This document shows positions 22,792 to 29,709 of a stretch of 64,000 nt of DNA, in pieces. The position numbers and the translations under genes were made by a program. The notes below the pieces were generated by a model. The model searched no databases. It worked only from the letters and a program-made list of their open reading frames with translations, and had not been told where the DNA came from. Position 1 is the first letter of the stretch; every line of letters starts with the position of its first letter. The stretch is taken from assembly GCF_007096885.1 (NCBI RefSeq), contig NZ_VJNO01000003.1, positions 186,001 to 250,000 on the forward strand. Direction: 5' to 3'. This DNA comes from Streptomyces sp. 130. Lineage in GTDB: Bacteria > Actinomycetota > Actinomycetes > Streptomycetales > Streptomycetaceae.

Positions 22792-22835
22792 CAAAGCACG
22801 CCCGACTACTTACTAACCACTTAGTGGGTGTGCTT
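22792..22835. promoter_or_regulatory. Nested dyad between tetR and GH30 genes
   Basis: Outer arms AAAGCACGCCC (22792-22802) and GGGTGTGCTTT (22825-22835) match at 10 of 11 positions. Inside lies a perfect ACTAA-CCAC-TTAGT dyad at 22811-22824. It is 95 bp upstream of the GH30 start and 85 bp upstream of the regulator start, and is the best operator candidate in the divergent region. Confidence 0.6.
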
Positions 22836-22929
22836 TCATATCGCCGTCGTCCACGGAGCCGCGCCCCGCCACGGCGTCCGAGGGGACGCGCCATGTCCTC
22901 CCCCAGGCATGACCGAAGGAGAGCCGCAC

Positions 22930-24831
22930 ATGTCCCACGACACTCCCCCGCGCCCACGGGCGCGCGCCGCGGTCGCGGCCCTGGCGATGGCCGTCGCGGC
23001 CGTCGGTCTGGCCGGCAGCGGTACGGCCGCGCGGGCCGCCGACCCCACGGCTCAGGTATGGGTCACCACTCCCGACGGCGCGAAGAGGCTGTCCGCCGAG
23101 GGCACCGTCGCCTTCACGGGCTCGCCGCAGAGCATCGACATCCGCGTGGACGCCGGCAGCAGGGGCCAGAGGTTCACCGGGGCGGGCGCCTCGGTGACCG
23201 GGGCCTCGGCCCACCTCATCCAGGGCCTGCCGCAGGACAGGCGGAGCGCGTTGATGACCTCGCTGTTCTCGGCCTCCGGCGACGGGATCGGGCTCAGCTA
23301 TCTGCGCCAGCCGCTCGGCAGCAGCGACTTCAACGCCGACGGCAGCCTCTACACGTACGAGGACACGCCCGGCTCCTTCTCCATCGACCGGGACAAGGCC
23401 GAGATCATCCCGGTCCTGAAGCAGGCCACCTCGGTCAACCCGGCCATCCGCTTCATGGGCACCCCCTGGTCCCCGCCCGCCTGGATGAAGACCAACAACG
23501 CGCTGAACGGCGGCAGCCTCAAGCCGGAGAGCTACCAGTCGTACGCCGACTACCTGGTCAAGGCGATCAAGGCGTACGGGCAGCAGGGCATCGTGCTGAC
23601 CGACCTCACCGTGCAGAACGAGCCGCAGTTCGCGGCGAGTTACCCGTCGATGACCATGACCGCGTCCCAGCAGGCGGACTTCTTCAAGGTGCTCGACCGT
23701 ACGCTGACGGCGGCGGGCCTGCCGACGAACCTGCTGGCCTTCGACCACAACTGGGACCACCCGGACTATCCGTTGGAGGTGTTCGCCGGGACCCCGGGCA
23801 CGAGCCGGGTGATCGGCGCCGCGTTCCACTGCTACGGCGGTGACCCCTCCGCCCAGCAGCAGGTCGTCGACGCCGGGAAGCGGGTGTTCTTCACCGAGTG
23901 CTCCGGTACGGAGAGCGCCGACCGGTCCGCCACCTTCGCCGACACCCTCAAGTGGCACGCCGCGAACCTCGTCGTGCGCAACATGCGCAACGGCGGCGAG
24001 ACGGTCATCGACTGGAACCTGGCCCTGGACCAGAACGGCGGCCCGCACCAGGGCGGTTGCGCGGACCGCTGCAACGGAGTCGTGGAGATCGCGAACGGCA
24101 CTGTGACGCGCAACGCCGAGTATTACGTACTGGGGCAGCTCGCCAAGTTCGTCGTGCCCGGCGCCACCCGCATCGGCTCGACCAGCCAGGGCGGCGGAGG
24201 GGTGGAGAACGTCGCCTTCCAGAATCCGGACGGCTCCCGGGCCGCGTACGTCGTCAACTCGGCCGCGAGCGCGCAGCGGTTCTCGCTGACCGACGACGGC
24301 AGGTCGCTGGTCTACACGCTGCCCGCGGGCGCGGTCGCCACCTTCGTGTGGAACGGCACCGACGGCGGCACCACGGAGCCGCCCGCCGGCTCCGTCGACC
24401 CGTCCGTCTGGTACCGGGTGAAGAACGCCGGCAGCGGTGCCTGTCTGGACGCCGCCGACTGGGGCACCGCCGACGGGACCGCGCTCCAGCAGTGGAGCTG
24501 CACCACCGGCGCCAACCAGAGCTGGCAGTTCCGGCCCGCGGGTGACGGCGCCTACCAGGTCGTCAGCCGGCACAACGGCAAGGTGTGGGACGTCGACGGC
24601 GGGCCCGGCGCGACCGCCTCCGGCACCCGCGTGCACCTGTGGTCCTACGTGGGCGGCACCAACCAGCAGTGGCGGGCGGAGCCCCTGGGCGCGGCCGGCC
24701 GCTACCGCTTCGTCGCCCGCAACAGCGGCAAGTGCCTGGCCGTGGACGGGGCGTCCACCGCCAACGGCGCGCACCTCTCGCAGCAGCCGTGCGACGGATC
24801 GGCGGCGCAGGCGTTCTCGCTGGAGAGCTGA
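22930..24831 (+). CDS. Secreted GH30 glycosidase with ricin-type lectin
   Basis: This 633-residue exported enzyme has a signal peptide at residues 1-36 (cleavage near ARA-ADP). The GH30 (beta/alpha)8 domain with its beta side domain spans about 50-485 (acid/base E231 in TVQNEPQF, nucleophile E323 in VFFTECSG). The ricin B/CBM13 trefoil covers about 496-633, with three Q-x-W-like repeats (LQQWSC, NQSWQF, NQQWRA). GH30 members hydrolyse beta-1,6-glucan, glucosylceramide or xylan; TPWSPPAWMKTN fits the glucan/glucosylceramidase branch. The ATG at 22930 has GAAGGAG 8 bases upstream. A strong terminator follows. Confidence 0.92.
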   Translation: MSHDTPPRPRARAAVAALAMAVAAVGLAGSGTAARAADPTAQVWVTTPDGAKRLSAEGTVAFTGSPQSIDIRVDAGSRGQRFTGAGASVTGASAHLIQGLPQDRRSALMTSLFSASGDGIGLSYLRQPLGSSDFNADGSLYTYEDTPGSFSIDRDKAEIIPVLKQATSVNPAIRFMGTPWSPPAWMKTNNALNGGSLKPESYQSYADYLVKAIKAYGQQGIVLTDLTVQNEPQFAASYPSMTMTASQQADFFKVLDRTLTAAGLPTNLLAFDHNWDHPDYPLEVFAGTPGTSRVIGAAFHCYGGDPSAQQQVVDAGKRVFFTECSGTESADRSATFADTLKWHAANLVVRNMRNGGETVIDWNLALDQNGGPHQGGCADRCNGVVEIANGTVTRNAEYYVLGQLAKFVVPGATRIGSTSQGGGGVENVAFQNPDGSRAAYVVNSAASAQRFSLTDDGRSLVYTLPAGAVATFVWNGTDGGTTEPPAGSVDPSVWYRVKNAGSGACLDAADWGTADGTALQQWSCTTGANQSWQFRPAGDGAYQVVSRHNGKVWDVDGGPGATASGTRVHLWSYVGGTNQQWRAEPLGAAGRYRFVARNSGKCLAVDGASTANGAHLSQQPCDGSAAQAFSLES

Positions 24832-25184: not shown

Positions 25185-25308
25185 CCACGCATGATCCCAC
25201 GGTGCTCCCATGCGCCGGGGTGTGCGGCGCGTTGCCGTGGGGCGCCGTGCTCCCAGGGGGCCCCGCGCGCTCTACCGGGGCCCGGGGGCGGCGGAAATGA
25301 TGAGCACA

Positions 25309-25342
25309 CCGCAGGTCAACCTGGTGATCCGCACCCCTGCGG
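25309..25342 (+). promoter_or_regulatory. Hairpin just before the mfnB ribosome site
   Basis: CCGCAGG at 25309-25315 pairs with CCTGCGG at 25336-25342, ending one base before the GGAAGGAG ribosome site at 25344-25351. It could affect translation of the first gene of the furan operon, or be a regulator-binding dyad. Confidence 0.35.
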
Positions 25343-25357
25343 CGGAAGGAGCCCAAG

Positions 25358-26113
25358 GTGTTGCTTCTCATCTCCCCGGACAGCGTCGAGGAAGCCGTCG
25401 ACTGCGCGAAGGCGGCGGAGTACCTCGACATCGTCGACGTGAAGAAGCCCGACGAGGGGTCGCTCGGCGCCAACTTCCCCTGGGTCATCCGGGAGATCCG
25501 GGAGGCGGTCCCGGCCGGCAAGCCGGTGTCCGCGACCGTGGGCGACGTCCCGTACAAGCCCGGCACGGTGGCCCAGGCGGCGCTGGGGGCCGTCGTCTCG
25601 GGTGCCACGTACATCAAGGTCGGGCTCTACGGGTGCACGACGCCCGACCAGGGGATCGACGTCATGCGGGCGGTCGTCCGGGCGGTGAAGGACTACCGTC
25701 CGGAGGCCCTGGTCGTCGCCTCCGGTTACGCCGACGCGCATCGCGTCGGGTGTGTCAACCCACTCGCACTGCCCGACATCGCGGCCCGGTCCGGTGCCGA
25801 CGCGGCCATGCTCGACACGGCCATCAAGGACGGTTCCCGGCTGTTCGACCACGTACCGCCGGACGTCTGCGCCGAGTTCGTCGGTCTCGCCCACGCCTCC
25901 GGACTGCTCGCGGCCCTCGCGGGCAGCGTGAAGCAGGACGACCTCGCCACGCTGACCCGGATCGGCACGGACATCGTGGGGGTGCGCGGGGCGGTCTGCG
26001 AGGGCGGTGACCGCAACGCAGGAAGGATTCAGCCGCACCTGGTGGCCGCGTTCCGGGCGGAGATGGACCGGCATGCCCGGGAGTTCGCGGCCGGCGTCAC
26101 CCTCGCGGGCTGA
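25358..26113 (+). CDS. mfnB: (5-formylfuran-3-yl)methyl phosphate synthase (MfnB-like)
   Basis: This 251-residue TIM-barrel protein is strongly MfnB-like: [16 protein letters not shown] at the start, then [20 protein letters not shown]. MfnB joins two glyceraldehyde-3-phosphates into 4-(hydroxymethyl)-2-furancarboxaldehyde phosphate, the furan unit of methanofuran. The four residues known from the Methanocaldococcus enzyme (K27, K85, D151, K155) appear here at K29, K87, D153 and K157, each shifted by two, so it should be active. The GTG at 25358 has a good ribosome site. It heads an operon with two dehydrogenases and a methyltransferase. Methanofuran itself is not expected in Streptomyces, so the product is probably another furan. 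Confidence 0.9.
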
Positions 26114-26121
26114 CCGCCGGG

Positions 26122-27522
26122 ATGCGGACATCGGACGAGGCGGGGCGCGGCGCCCGGGGCGCGTCGTTCTCCGTGGCCGACCCGGCCACCGGGGAGATCT
26201 GCGGCGAGGCCCCCGACATGCGGCCGGACGAGCTGGACGCGGTGATCGGCCGGGCCCACCGGGCCTGGCCCGGGTGGCGGGCCGACGCCGCCGCCCGGAC
26301 CCGGGCGCTGCTCGGCGCGGCCGACGCCGTGGAAGCGGCCGGTGACGACCTGGCGCCCCTGCTCACCCGGGAGCAGGGCAAGCCGCTGGCCGAGTCGTAC
26401 GCGGAGGTCGCCCGCACGGCGGCCCGGCTGCGCTACTTCGCGGACCTCGCCCCGAGGACGCGGCGGATCAGCGACGGGCGGCCGGTGCGCAGCGAGGTCC
26501 GCTGGCGCCCGGTCGGGCCGGTGGCCGCGATCGTGCCGTGGAACTTCCCGCTGCAACTGGCGGCGGCGAAGTTCGCGCCCGCGCTCGCGGCGGGCAACAC
26601 CATGGTCCTCAAGCCGTCGCCGTACACCCCGCTGGCCACCCGGCTGCTGGGGTCCGTCCTGGCGGCCGCCCTGCCCGAGGACGTGCTGACCGTGGTAACC
26701 GGGCGCGAACCCCTCGGGGCGCGGCTCGCGTCGCACCCGGGCATCCGGCACGTCACCTTCACCGGTTCGGTACCCACCGGACGGGCGGTCGCCGAGGGGG
26801 CGGCGGCATCCCTCGCCCGGGTCACCCTGGAACTGGGCGGCAACGACGCGGCCGTCCTGCTGGACGACGTCGATGTGGAGGCGGTCGCGGACCGGTTGTT
26901 CTGGGCCGCCTTCCGCAACTGCGGGCAGGTCTGCATGGCCGTCAAGCGGGTCTACGCGCCCGCGCGGCTGCACGCGGAGGTGGTCGAGGCGCTGGCCCAG
27001 CGCGCGAAGTCCGTCGCGGTGGGCAGCGGTCTCGACCCGGACACCCGGATCGGCCCGGTCAACAACGCCCCGCAGCTGGCCCGGGTGGCGGAGCTCACCG
27101 AGCGGGCCCTGGCCGACGGTGCCCGGGCCGCGGCCGGCGGGCACCGGCTGGACGGCCCGGGCCACTTCTTCGCCCCGACGGTCCTCACCGGCGTGCCGCC
27201 CGGGAGCGCGGTGGTGACGGAGGAGCAGTTCGGGCCGGTCCTGCCGGTGCTGCCGTACGGAAGCGTCGACGAGGCGGTCGACGCGGCCAACGGCACCGGC
27301 TTCGGGCTCGGCGGCTCGGTCTGGGGCACCGACCTGGACCGGGCGGAGGCGGTGGCGGACCGGCTGGAGTGCGGGACGGCCTGGATCAACCATCACGCCG
27401 AACTGTCGCTCGCCCAGCCGTTCGCCGGGATCAAGGACAGCGGGGTCGGCGTCGCGGGCGGCCCCTGGGGGCTGTACGGAAACCTGCGGCCGTTCGTCGT
27501 CCACCGCCCGGAGGGACCGTGA
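26122..27522 (+). CDS. NAD(P)-dependent aldehyde dehydrogenase
   Basis: This 466-residue ALDH-superfamily enzyme has its complete active site: oxyanion N141 in VPWNFPLQL, K164 in VLKPSPYTPL, general base E237 in LELGGND and catalytic C271 in NCGQVCMAVKR. It oxidises an aldehyde to the acid. Placed 8 bp after the MfnB-like gene, it is well suited to oxidising the furan aldehyde (or an aldehyde made by the next enzyme) to a furoic acid; this is inferred from context. The start is the ATG at 26122; its stop overlaps the next start. Confidence 0.9.
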   Translation: MRTSDEAGRGARGASFSVADPATGEICGEAPDMRPDELDAVIGRAHRAWPGWRADAAARTRALLGAADAVEAAGDDLAPLLTREQGKPLAESYAEVARTAARLRYFADLAPRTRRISDGRPVRSEVRWRPVGPVAAIVPWNFPLQLAAAKFAPALAAGNTMVLKPSPYTPLATRLLGSVLAAALPEDVLTVVTGREPLGARLASHPGIRHVTFTGSVPTGRAVAEGAAASLARVTLELGGNDAAVLLDDVDVEAVADRLFWAAFRNCGQVCMAVKRVYAPARLHAEVVEALAQRAKSVAVGSGLDPDTRIGPVNNAPQLARVAELTERALADGARAAAGGHRLDGPGHFFAPTVLTGVPPGSAVVTEEQFGPVLPVLPYGSVDEAVDAANGTGFGLGGSVWGTDLDRAEAVADRLECGTAWINHHAELSLAQPFAGIKDSGVGVAGGPWGLYGNLRPFVVHRPEGP

Positions 27523-28631
27523 CCAGGAGATTCAGGGCGGCGGTGCTGCGCTCGTACGAGGAGCCGTTCGCGGTCGAGGACGTCGTCCTGCGGACGGCAC
27601 CCGCCGCCGGTGAGCTGCTGGTGGAGATCGCGGGCGCCGGGATGTGCCGGACCGACCTCGCGGTGCGCCGGTCGGCCGGCCGCAGCCCGCTGCCGGCGGT
27701 CCTCGGCCACGAGGGGGCCGGGGTCGTCGTGGAAACGGGCGGCGGGCCCGGTACGGGGATCGGCGTCGGCGACCACGTGGTGCTGAGCTTCGACTCCTGC
27801 GGGCTGTGCCGCAACTGCCGGGGCGCGGCCCCCGCGTACTGCGACTCCTTCGCCTCGCTCAACCTCTTCGGAGGGCGTGCGCAGGAGCCGCCCCGGCTCG
27901 GCGACGCGGACGGGAAGGCGCTGGCGCCCCGGTGGTTCGGCCAGTCCTCGTTCGCCGAGTACGCGCTCGTGTCCGCCCGCAACGCCGTCCGCGTCGACCC
28001 CGCGCTCCCCGTCGAGCTGCTCGGGCCGCTCGGCTGCGGCTTCCTCACCGGGGCCGGGGCGGTGCTGAACACCTTCCGCGCCGGTCCGGCCGACCCGCTG
28101 GTGGTCCTCGGAGCCGGGGCGGTGGGGCTGGCGGCGGTGATGGCGGCGGGGGCGGCCGGGGTGCCGGTCGTGGCGGTGGACCGGTACCCCCGGCGGCTGG
28201 AGCTCGCCGAGCGGTACGGTGCCGTCGCGCTGAGCGCCGGCCCGGCCGGGCTGCCGGAGCGCATCCGCCGGCTGACGGACGGCGGCGCGCGGTACGCGCT
28301 GGACACGACGGCGTCGCCCGCACTGATCAACGACGCGCTCCGGGCGCTCCGCCCGACCGGGACGCTGGGCCTGGTGGCGCGGCTGCACAGCGCCCTGCCG
28401 CTGGAGCCGGGCACCCTGGACCGGGGCCGCAGCGTGCGCCACATCTGCGAGGGGGACGCGGTGCCCGGGCTGCTGATCCCGGTACTGACGGAGCTGTGGC
28501 GGGCCGGGCGGTTCCCCTTCGACCAGCTGATCCGTACCTATCCCCTGGCCGGCGTCAACGAGGCCGAACGCGACTGCGACGCGGGCCGGGTGGTCAAACC
28601 CGTCCTGATCCCGGAGGGAAGAAGCCGATGA
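27519..28631 (+). CDS. Zinc alcohol dehydrogenase, aryl-alcohol type
   Basis: This 370-residue MDR-family enzyme has catalytic zinc ligands C43 (AGMCRTD) and H64-E65 (LGHEGAGVV), a structural zinc lobe C94-x2-C97-x2-C100-x7-C108 and a nucleotide-binding LGAGAVGLAAVMA. The CGLCRNCRGAAPAYC lobe and the glycine-rich central region resemble aryl/benzyl alcohol dehydrogenases, which fits a hydroxymethyl-furan substrate. It starts with GTG overlapping the ALDH stop and ends in ATGA with the methyltransferase start. Together the two dehydrogenases could oxidise both substituents of the furan ring; the order of steps is unknown. Confidence 0.88.
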   Translation: MTRRFRAAVLRSYEEPFAVEDVVLRTAPAAGELLVEIAGAGMCRTDLAVRRSAGRSPLPAVLGHEGAGVVVETGGGPGTGIGVGDHVVLSFDSCGLCRNCRGAAPAYCDSFASLNLFGGRAQEPPRLGDADGKALAPRWFGQSSFAEYALVSARNAVRVDPALPVELLGPLGCGFLTGAGAVLNTFRAGPADPLVVLGAGAVGLAAVMAAGAAGVPVVAVDRYPRRLELAERYGAVALSAGPAGLPERIRRLTDGGARYALDTTASPALINDALRALRPTGTLGLVARLHSALPLEPGTLDRGRSVRHICEGDAVPGLLIPVLTELWRAGRFPFDQLIRTYPLAGVNEAERDCDAGRVVKPVLIPEGRSR

Positions 28632-29545
28632 ACGAGGCATGCGGTACAACACCCCAGGACCTGGGGGCGGCGGAGGGTGTGGACGGCGGTGTGGGGCTGA
28701 CCGCCCTGCTGGTCGCCGCCGCCCGCGCGATCGAGACCCGTCGCCATGACAGCCTGGCCCGTGACGTCTACGCCGAGCACTTCGTGCGGGCCGCGCCGGC
28801 GTGCGCCGGGTGGCCCGTGCGCATCGAGGAGGTGCCCGACGGGGACGACAACGCGCTGTGGGGCCGGTTCGCCCGCTACTTCGGGCTGCGGACCCGGGTC
28901 CTGGACGACTTCGTCGTGCGGTCGGTGCTCACGGGCGCCCGCCAGGTGGTGCTCCTGGGGGCCGGGCTGGACACCCGGGCGTTCCGGCTGGACTGGCCGT
29001 CGGACTGCGTGTTCTTCGAGATCGACCGGGCGGGCGTGCTGGCCTTCAAGCACCAGGTGCTGACGGACCTGTCGGCGGCGCCGCGGGTCAAACGCGTGCT
29101 GGTTCCGGCCGATCTGCGCGACGACTGGGTCAGCGCGCTGACCGCCTCGGGCTTCGACCCCGGGGCACCGAGCGTCTGGCTGGCGGAGGGCTTGCTGTTC
29201 TATCTGCCGGGCCCGGCAGAAACGTATCTCGTGGACACCGTGGACTTGCTGGCCGCCGAGGGCAGCGCCCTGGCCTTCGAGGCGAAGCTGGAGGCTGACC
29301 TTCTGGCGTACCGGGACAGCGCGACCTACACGGCGACACGCGAGCAGATCGGCATCGACCTGCTCGACCTGTTCGACAAGGGCCCGCGTCCCGACTCCGC
29401 GGGCCGTCTCGCCGCGCGGGGCTGGTCCGCCTCGACGCACACGCCTTTCGAGTTCACCCGCCGCCACGGACGCGGCCCGCTGCCGGAGGCGAACGACGCG
29501 CTGGAGGGCAACCGGTGGATCTTCGCGTACCGGCGCCGCACCTAA
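28628..29545 (+). CDS. LCMT/TIGR00027-type SAM methyltransferase
   Basis: This 305-residue class I methyltransferase is of the leucine-carboxyl-methyltransferase-like (TIGR00027) group: the SAM loop reads VVLLGAGLDTRAFRL (residues 108-121), followed by FEIDRAGVL, VPADLRDDW and SVWLAEGLLFYLP. Relatives make carboxyl methyl esters or O-methylate small molecules. As the last gene of the furan operon it could esterify a furoic acid. The start overlaps the previous stop. The stop codon TAA lies inside the left end of a MITE-like element (bases 29543-29545 of the inverted repeat), so the original C terminus may have been altered. Confidence 0.88.
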   Translation: MNEACGTTPQDLGAAEGVDGGVGLTALLVAAARAIETRRHDSLARDVYAEHFVRAAPACAGWPVRIEEVPDGDDNALWGRFARYFGLRTRVLDDFVVRSVLTGARQVVLLGAGLDTRAFRLDWPSDCVFFEIDRAGVLAFKHQVLTDLSAAPRVKRVLVPADLRDDWVSALTASGFDPGAPSVWLAEGLLFYLPGPAETYLVDTVDLLAAEGSALAFEAKLEADLLAYRDSATYTATREQIGIDLLDLFDKGPRPDSAGRLAARGWSASTHTPFEFTRRHGRGPLPEANDALEGNRWIFAYRRRT

Positions 29546-29709
29546 GGGCTGTCCCGTAATCCCTGGCGGGCGTGCGACGACAGCCACGGCACCTCGCCGC
29601 GTTGTCGGAACGCCCGAATACACCCAGTATTCGGGCGTCCCTCCGCCTTGCGATGCACCGCGTCTGACGCCGCACGCTGATCCACCAGGGATTACGGGAC
29701 AGCCCTTAG
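29542..29709. mobile_element. 168-bp MITE-like element, perfect 25-bp inverted ends
   Basis: Bases 29542-29566 and 29685-29709 are perfect 25-bp inverted repeats, with outermost ends CTAAG and CTTAG followed by a GGGCTGTCCCGTAATCCC core. The element encodes nothing. It contains an inner hairpin, CGCCCGAATAC (29611-29621) paired with GTATTCGGGCG (29627-29637). Size, lack of coding and end symmetry suggest a miniature inverted-repeat element mobilised by an IS transposase in trans; the family is not certain. It fills the gap between two convergent genes and may also act as a bidirectional terminator. Confidence 0.75.

Follow-up and report, generated by a model that had tools for sequence, protein, structure and literature searches.

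An MfnB-like furan synthase in a conserved and mobile operon of Streptomycetaceae: a candidate pathway for a small furan metabolite

The enzyme MfnB, known from the biosynthesis of one-carbon (C1) cofactors, combines two triose phosphates into a furan ring within a single active site. Excerpts of two published accounts describe two lysines and two aspartates as essential for this reaction, with Lys27 as the residue forming the Schiff base (PMC6604932), and Lys155 as catalytic (PMC11365854). Small furans are also produced by Streptomyces coelicolor, whose methylenomycin furans (MmfL/H/P) are proposed, in the portion of PMC6604932 consulted, to arise from a beta-ketoacyl thioester and dihydroxyacetone phosphate, which yield 4-hydroxymethylfuran-3-carboxylic acids. 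Here we describe an operon of Streptomyces sp. 130, contained in a stretch of 64,000 nucleotides (contig NZ_VJNO01000003.1, positions 186,001 to 250,000; hereafter the window), in which an MfnB-like synthase is encoded together with an aldehyde dehydrogenase (ALDH), a zinc alcohol dehydrogenase (ADH) and a methyltransferase (MT) by four tightly spaced genes of the + strand (25358-29545). Judging from sequence comparison, we propose with moderate confidence that this operon encodes a pathway, conserved among Streptomycetaceae and mobile by horizontal transfer, to a small 2,4-disubstituted furan metabolite.

The product of the first gene, the only PF04476 gene in the genome of the window (G000), matches this family (269.1 bits; cut-off 22.4) and the equivalog hidden Markov model (HMM) NF002573 (392.7 bits; cut-off 341) over its full length. 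It is identical to MJ1099 of M. jannaschii (PDB 4rc1, 4u9p) at 138 of 229 positions (60.3%), and its residues D27, K29, K87, D153 and K157 align with D25, K27, K85, D151 and K155 of the archaeal enzyme, of which K85, D25 and D151 are presumably active-site residues. All five are invariant in the 145 distinct mfnB loci of the survey described below, whose products share at least 80% pairwise identity; in total, 120 of the 250 positions following the start are invariant (the first residue had been set to M and was excluded from the count). Purifying selection acts on the gene (dN/dS 0.02-0.24 in 12 close pairs). The original prediction of an MfnB with four expected active-site residues (K29, K87, D153 and K157) is therefore well founded, as judged by the HMMs, the alignment with MJ1099 and the invariance of these positions. 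Given the 60% identity and the unchanged active site, the enzyme very probably converts two molecules of glyceraldehyde-3-phosphate into (5-formylfuran-3-yl)methyl phosphate (4-HFC-P). Related aldolase-like TIM barrels can change the outcome of their reaction, and the literature searched contained no assay of a Streptomyces MfnB, so that another product might be formed from triose phosphates and no furan at all; such a change appears improbable in view of the similarity to MJ1099, the active site retained in 145 of 145 loci and the equivalog score above its cut-off.

The tight coupling of the four genes, claimed at the outset, was borne out: mfnB and the ALDH gene are separated by 8 bp, while the ALDH-ADH and ADH-MT junctions are overlaps of 4 bp each. 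A survey of gene order, proposed in the original prediction as the way to challenge it, comprised 80 of the 94 other full-length loci of the genus, the 80 best of 202 named relatives and the window. These 161 loci contain 145 distinct mfnB genes, of which seven were dropped because their contigs extend less than 4.6 kb past the start of mfnB, leaving 138 to be counted; since the loci were chosen for having mfnB, the counts speak for linkage and not for frequency. The order proved to be kept. The synthase, a full-length ADH and a full-length MT occur within 8 kb in all 138 loci, and the complete set of full-length, co-directional mfnB, ALDH, ADH and MT genes in exactly this order is present in 115. 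The MT gene starts at most 500 bp from that of the ADH in 136 loci, and 1.5 kb (L197) or 3.0 kb (L110) away in the others. The median spacing in 116 loci with a full ALDH and a co-directional MT is 8 nt (mfnB-ALDH), -4 nt (ALDH-ADH) and 61.5 nt (ADH-MT).

The ALDH is full length in 127 loci, partial in eight and absent from three, and its loss requires at least nine changes on a tree built from MfnB, ADH and MT (138 rows, FastTree; 45 of 135 inner branches weak), while the other three genes persist. The broken remnants in three pairs of loci (L185/L068, L188/L052 and L135/L141) gave dN/dS values of 1.07, 0.55 and 0.45, compared with 0.14, 0.24 and 0.10 for mfnB, 0.04, 0.16 and 0.25 for MT, and 0.54, 0.18 and 0.28 for ADH of the same pairs; these values, which are rough because of small counts, point to relaxed selection on the three remnants examined. 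The fixed chain of four enzymes originally envisaged must thus be corrected. The loss of ALDH in 11 of 138 loci in which MfnB, ADH and MT are retained indicates that these three form the core and that the ALDH is replaceable, which renders a pathway dependent on the operon's own ALDH doubtful unless host ALDHs can substitute for it.

The MT gene is inverted in 12 of the 138 loci (at least eight changes on the tree), in 11 of which it still lies within 500 bp. Inverted yet adjoining genes of this kind argue for a functional linkage that goes beyond simple co-transcription. A further 23 loci (18 from Streptomycetaceae and five plasmid regions) were viewed and not counted, some of which duplicate counted records (L219/L175, L222/L156, L225/L161) or each other (L228/L235). 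The latter two, from S. cattleya, lack an ALDH gene at the mfnB-ADH junction and carry an inverted MT, and another (L224) ends inside the ALDH gene.

The partner enzymes retain their active-site residues. The catalytic Cys and Glu of the ALDH are kept in every best match covering the region (140 matches), and the gene is under purifying selection in eight pairs with both copies intact (dN/dS 0.12-0.38). The nearest solved relatives of the ADH are 5tnx (285.2 bits) and the benzyl alcohol dehydrogenase 1f8f (254.8 bits), with human ADH at 143.3 bits. Residues C43, H64 and C94/C97/C100/C108 are conserved in 142 of 142 matches and C173 in 143 of 143, all of which we take to be catalytic or structural zinc ligands. 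A stop codon is crossed by 11 ADH matches, each time within the final dozen residues, and probably represents the natural end. Its dN/dS ranges from 0.12 to 0.30, apart from two pairs at 0.43 and 0.54 (12 close pairs, one of them not computable for ADH). The MT matches the leucine carboxyl methyltransferase (LCM) family PF04072 (181.5 bits) and TIGR00027 (252.6 bits), and retains the glycine and aspartate of GAGLDTR, presumably its S-adenosylmethionine (SAM) motif, in all 141 best matches; its dN/dS is 0.04-0.27 (12 close pairs). A single-sequence structure prediction of this protein reached a pLDDT of 36.9 and was discarded.

These activities can be arranged into a putative route. MfnB would form 4-HFC-P, from which a host phosphatase may release the hydroxymethyl group; the ADH would interconvert ring alcohol and aldehyde; the operon's ALDH, or a host enzyme in its place, would oxidise an aldehyde to a furoic acid; and the MT, if it behaves as other members of its family, would cap the carboxylate. 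The product is perhaps a methyl ester. Another arrangement of the same enzymes would account for the recurrent ALDH losses with ADH and MT kept: the ADH may reduce 4-hydroxymethylfurfural to the diol, one hydroxyl of which is methylated by the MT to give a reduced or ether product, with the ALDH as a side or detoxifying enzyme. We regard this as unlikely, since the LCM-family enzymes of known function methylate carboxylates, and the ALDH is full length in most loci and maintained by purifying selection where intact.

The operon is preceded by a leader of about 118 nt, which is conserved although the flanking genes mostly differ among loci. It consists of a GCGCYCTACC block, a AATGATGAG block, an ACCGC(A) block and a hairpin of 11 pairs ending just before the ribosome binding site. 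Covariation was analysed in 30 mostly TTG-type leaders, and the following result holds for that subset. The hairpin is paired in 91.2% of cells, as opposed to 15-53% when the arms are slid, two-sided changes were found in 12 cells (4.3 in shuffles), and the covariation score was 0.174 against 0.126, neither of the latter two values being reached by any of 500 shuffles. The support rests on the cells and this score, because the three pairs with two-sided changes and the 12 further pair types were matched by many shuffles (251 and 207 of 500, respectively). Of 13 windows folded in 51 leaders, only those from -60 to -16 (mean z -1.34) and from -51 to -7 (-1.12) were clearly more stable than shuffled sequences, and no excess structure was detected by this means in GCGCYCTACC and the other upstream blocks. 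RNAalifold predicted no pairs in the alignment of 92 leaders, in which we believe the hairpin to be misaligned. An alternative helix, ACCGCA/TGCGGT, was paired in 88.3% of cells with covariation not above shuffles, and was rejected. The same holds for a leader peptide: the frame starting at ATGATGAG is open in several leaders, and is broken by indels that are not multiples of three (assessed by eye). The leader is not a known riboswitch, as Rfam gave no match at the gathering score in the window and no sub-threshold match over 25264-25357.

A covariance model of the leader (R1) produced exactly one match, always at mfnB, in each of 85 sources (21 of them in the seed), including the window (25264-25360 with the start codon, 70 bits). 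Among whole genomes, one match was found in 15 of 16 with mfnB (some of them seed members) and none in five without it; the exception, G031, has a diverged leader (L085). The leader is thus not a regulon element, with the reservation that weak second sites may be missed, as only 150 candidates per genome were scored. The start codon of mfnB was read as TTG in 73, GTG in 69 and ATG in three of the 145 loci. We infer that the leader comprises a dedicated promoter and a translational brake, so that expression would be set by both; in most relatives the hairpin abuts the ribosome site in front of a weak TTG or GTG start. The 66 nt hairpin stretch of the window itself folds no better than shuffled sequences (z 0.20), so that this lineage does not depend on the hairpin.

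In the genus, PF04476 matches occur in 99 of 392 genomes: 95 have an undivided gene of full length, three show weak partial matches in frames of 481-570 aa, and in one the gene is split. With about a quarter of Streptomyces carrying it, the operon is not rare. In the family, there are matches in 29 of 150 genomes, two of them weak and partial, and in the phylum in 6 of 396: three Streptomyces (one of which is G000), one below the cut-off and two from other families (L211 and L212). Frames of 481-592 aa in G080, G108, G228, G483 and G506, which match weakly (31-38 bits) the first half of PF04476 only, may be members of another enzyme family whose barrel is related. The gene is also present in 13 plasmid records of Streptomyces and Streptantibioticus (85.6-92.7% identity); in the four annotated records examined, all four genes are found between unrelated flanks. 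Furthermore, in 24 of 27 contigs longer than 5 Mb the locus lies within 1.5 Mb of a contig end (derived by hand from the coordinates). The patchy presence, the plasmids and the location near contig ends make the operon look like accessory, horizontally mobile DNA.

This mobility also bears on the idea that the furan is incorporated into a larger product. The window contains, at 43585-63989 on the - strand, two large non-ribosomal peptide synthetase (NRPS) genes, which together encode six A domains, 14 kb downstream of the operon, and the 2512-aa protein ends in a reductase-like NAD_binding_4 domain, which suggests reductive release. An NRPS-like gene was also seen by eye upstream of mfnB in three loci. 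We consider incorporation into this NRPS product quite improbable: on plasmids, the four genes are found amid unrelated flanks, and no NRPS or polyketide synthase family is present among the 25 most recurrent neighbour families, a survey whose reach of about 6 kb could not have shown an NRPS at 14 kb and whose simple gene caller missed genes (e.g. mfnB was found in 68 of 81 loci).

A product resembling methanofuran or methylofuran, serving as a cofactor of C1 metabolism, might be expected from the pathways in which MfnB is otherwise known, and from the C1-type clusters that surround it in proteobacterial relatives and in the actinobacterial locus L211. Such a role is very doubtful in Streptomyces. 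The formylmethanofuran:tetrahydromethanopterin (H4MPT) formyltransferase (Ftr, PF01913) was found in none of 21 genomes (20 relatives and G000, the sole mfnB carrier known among them), with M. jannaschii and M. acetivorans as positive controls. The operon contains no aminotransferase, MfnE-type kinase or MfnF-type ligase, and no mfnC-, mfnE- or mfnF-type gene was detected among nine scanned window proteins or, by eye, among the 25 recurrent neighbour families. The operon is moreover patchy and accessory, and its MfnBs, so similar to each other, are set apart from those of L211, L212 and L229, to which the window's enzyme is only 46-50% identical. The expectation that the operon does not serve a methanofuran or methylofuran pathway is therefore supported, as are the MfnB assignment, the operon and its order; the original furan-pathway interpretation thus has partial support, and needs correction as regards the ALDH as a fixed member.

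A specialised metabolite or signal is a more likely product than a C1 cofactor. According to excerpts of PMC7581861, mfnB of S. coelicolor (SCO6440) is up-regulated in a delta-abrB mutant, which produces more actinorhodin and undecylprodigiosin, and was one of three up-regulated genes picked for validation by reverse-transcription quantitative PCR, in which the fold changes of up-regulated genes deviated more from the RNA-Seq data than those of down-regulated genes. The behaviour of SCO6440, a putative counterpart of the present mfnB, fits a specialised metabolite under developmental control.

Several observations weigh against the proposed furan pathway. At least nine losses of the ALDH, the presumed maker of the acid to be methylated, have left the MT in place, which fits poorly unless host ALDHs take over or the MT has another substrate; the sequences of LCM and TIGR00027 proteins do not reveal their substrates. 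One uncounted locus (L226) has mfnB, ALDH and ADH, with the MT missing from its 18 kb. Among the 25 most recurrent neighbour families, judged by eye and obtained with the gene caller that missed genes, neither a phosphatase, transporter or regulator at a fixed place nor a conserved receptor gene, which a signal would call for, was recognised. Finally, the 21 genomes negative for Ftr include just one, G000, that is known to possess mfnB.

One neighbour does recur. An EF-hand protein is encoded within the retrieved flanking sequence (about 10 kb at most) of 53 of the 138 loci, in 50 of them within 700 bp of the operon on either side (e.g. L056, L084, L190, L231, L232 and L234), and its arrangement requires at least 15 changes on the MfnB, ADH and MT tree. 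Relatives at E <= 1e-20 were found in 14 of 20 genomes with mfnB and 4 of 19 without it (uncorrected for kinship), and all five relatives of at least 85% identity lie within about 5 kb of mfnB; in G000 the relative (53% identity) is on another contig. The link is real as a neighbourhood. It is tempting to speculate, as an unlikely but attractive extension of the furan pathway, that the product belongs to an undescribed class of furan signals or hormones, widespread in Streptomycetaceae and chemically unrelated to the gamma-butyrolactones and methylenomycin furans, which would combine an archaeal-type furan synthase, control by its own leader and a tie to Ca2+ through the EF-hand protein.

Table 1. 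Coordinates of the operon and its leader in the window
Feature	Start	End	Strand	Remarks
Conserved operon leader	25264	25357	+	about 20 nt shorter than the approximately 118 nt of most relatives; inner part of the hairpin deleted
Block GCGCYCTACC, probable promoter/operator element	25267	25276	+	columns invariant or nearly so across the alignment of 92 leaders
Block AAATGATGAG, probable promoter element near the transcription start	25295	25304	+	invariant or near-invariant columns
Remnant of leader hairpin, CCGCA-CCCC-TGCGG, directly 5' of the ribosome site	25329	25342	+	full hairpin covaries in 30 relatives
Ribosome binding site GGAAGGAG	25344	25351	+	GGAAGG invariant in the 30-leader subset
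mfnB-like, predicted 4-HFC-P synthase	25358	26113	+	GTG start, 251 aa; PF04476, NF002573
ALDH	26122	27522	+	466 aa; PF00171, 461 bits
Zinc ADH, benzyl-alcohol-dehydrogenase-like	27519	28631	+	GTG start, 370 aa; PF08240 and PF00107
SAM-dependent MT, LCM family	28628	29545	+	ATG start, 305 aa; PF04072, TIGR00027

Two other features border the operon in the window. A GH30-type glucanase with a ricin-type lectin domain is encoded immediately upstream (22828-24831), and occurs upstream in 10 of the 145 loci. An inverted repeat at 29542-29709, with arms of 28 nt that are 96% complementary and separated by 112 nt, is situated between the MT gene, whose stop codon lies inside one arm, and a convergent GNAT gene; the repeat may represent either a long terminator or a small mobile element.

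A gene called mfnB in S. coelicolor (SCO6440) is already in print, in the part of PMC7581861 consulted. In the open-access literature no description of the operon or its product was found (subscription journals were mostly outside the search, and names with commas or brackets were unsearchable). New here are the loss of the ALDH and the resulting three-gene core, the conserved and covarying leader, and the linked EF-hand protein. The spread through a quarter of the genus and a named gene in the model species point to a common small metabolite for which we found no description. A chemistry known from C1 cofactors would thus be placed in a compact, mobile four-gene pathway and, if this is true, would provide an enzymatic route from central metabolites to 2,4-disubstituted furans.

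The operon can finally be compared with the systems that share its chemistry or its enzyme. The methylenomycin furans are likewise small furan metabolites of Streptomyces (PMC6604932, in excerpt); no MmfL-type gene was present among the nine window proteins scanned. The methylofuran clusters (Orf22/21/9) of proteobacteria, methylotrophs among them, as presented in excerpts of PMC8141765, also illustrate the bacterial use of an MfnB homologue. The MfnBs on proteobacterial plasmids are only 29-37% identical to that of the window, and in two such regions the gene is located near fhc, fae and related genes, similarly to the arrangements in excerpts of PMC8141765 and PMC9088363. Among actinobacteria of other families, the MfnB of L211 (47% identity to the window's) adjoins genes for FTR and an amino-acid kinase, and that of L212 (46%) a gene of the latter kind. 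Closer in taxonomy is the enzyme of L229, from another genus of Streptomycetaceae (G452), which resembles the present one in that no Ftr or fhc genes were recognised alongside; it is 50% identical, represents another MfnB type and lacks all three partners. Its different cluster (L229:2110-9269; G452:C19) comprises MfnB, a UbiA prenyltransferase, a kinase of the amino-acid-kinase fold (MfnE-like by fold), a class I/II aminotransferase and an AMP-ligase fused to a short-chain dehydrogenase/reductase (SDR), and possibly supplies aminomethylfuran diphosphate to the UbiA enzyme. A further close counterpart is the MJ1099-type MfnB of methanogens, which shares with the Streptomyces enzyme full-length homology, 60.3% identity, the active site and the equivalog HMM. 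The two differ in their setting: the Streptomyces operon is free of MfnC-, MfnE- and MfnF-type genes, in a genome without Ftr, and its synthase is joined instead to an ALDH, an ADH and a MT.

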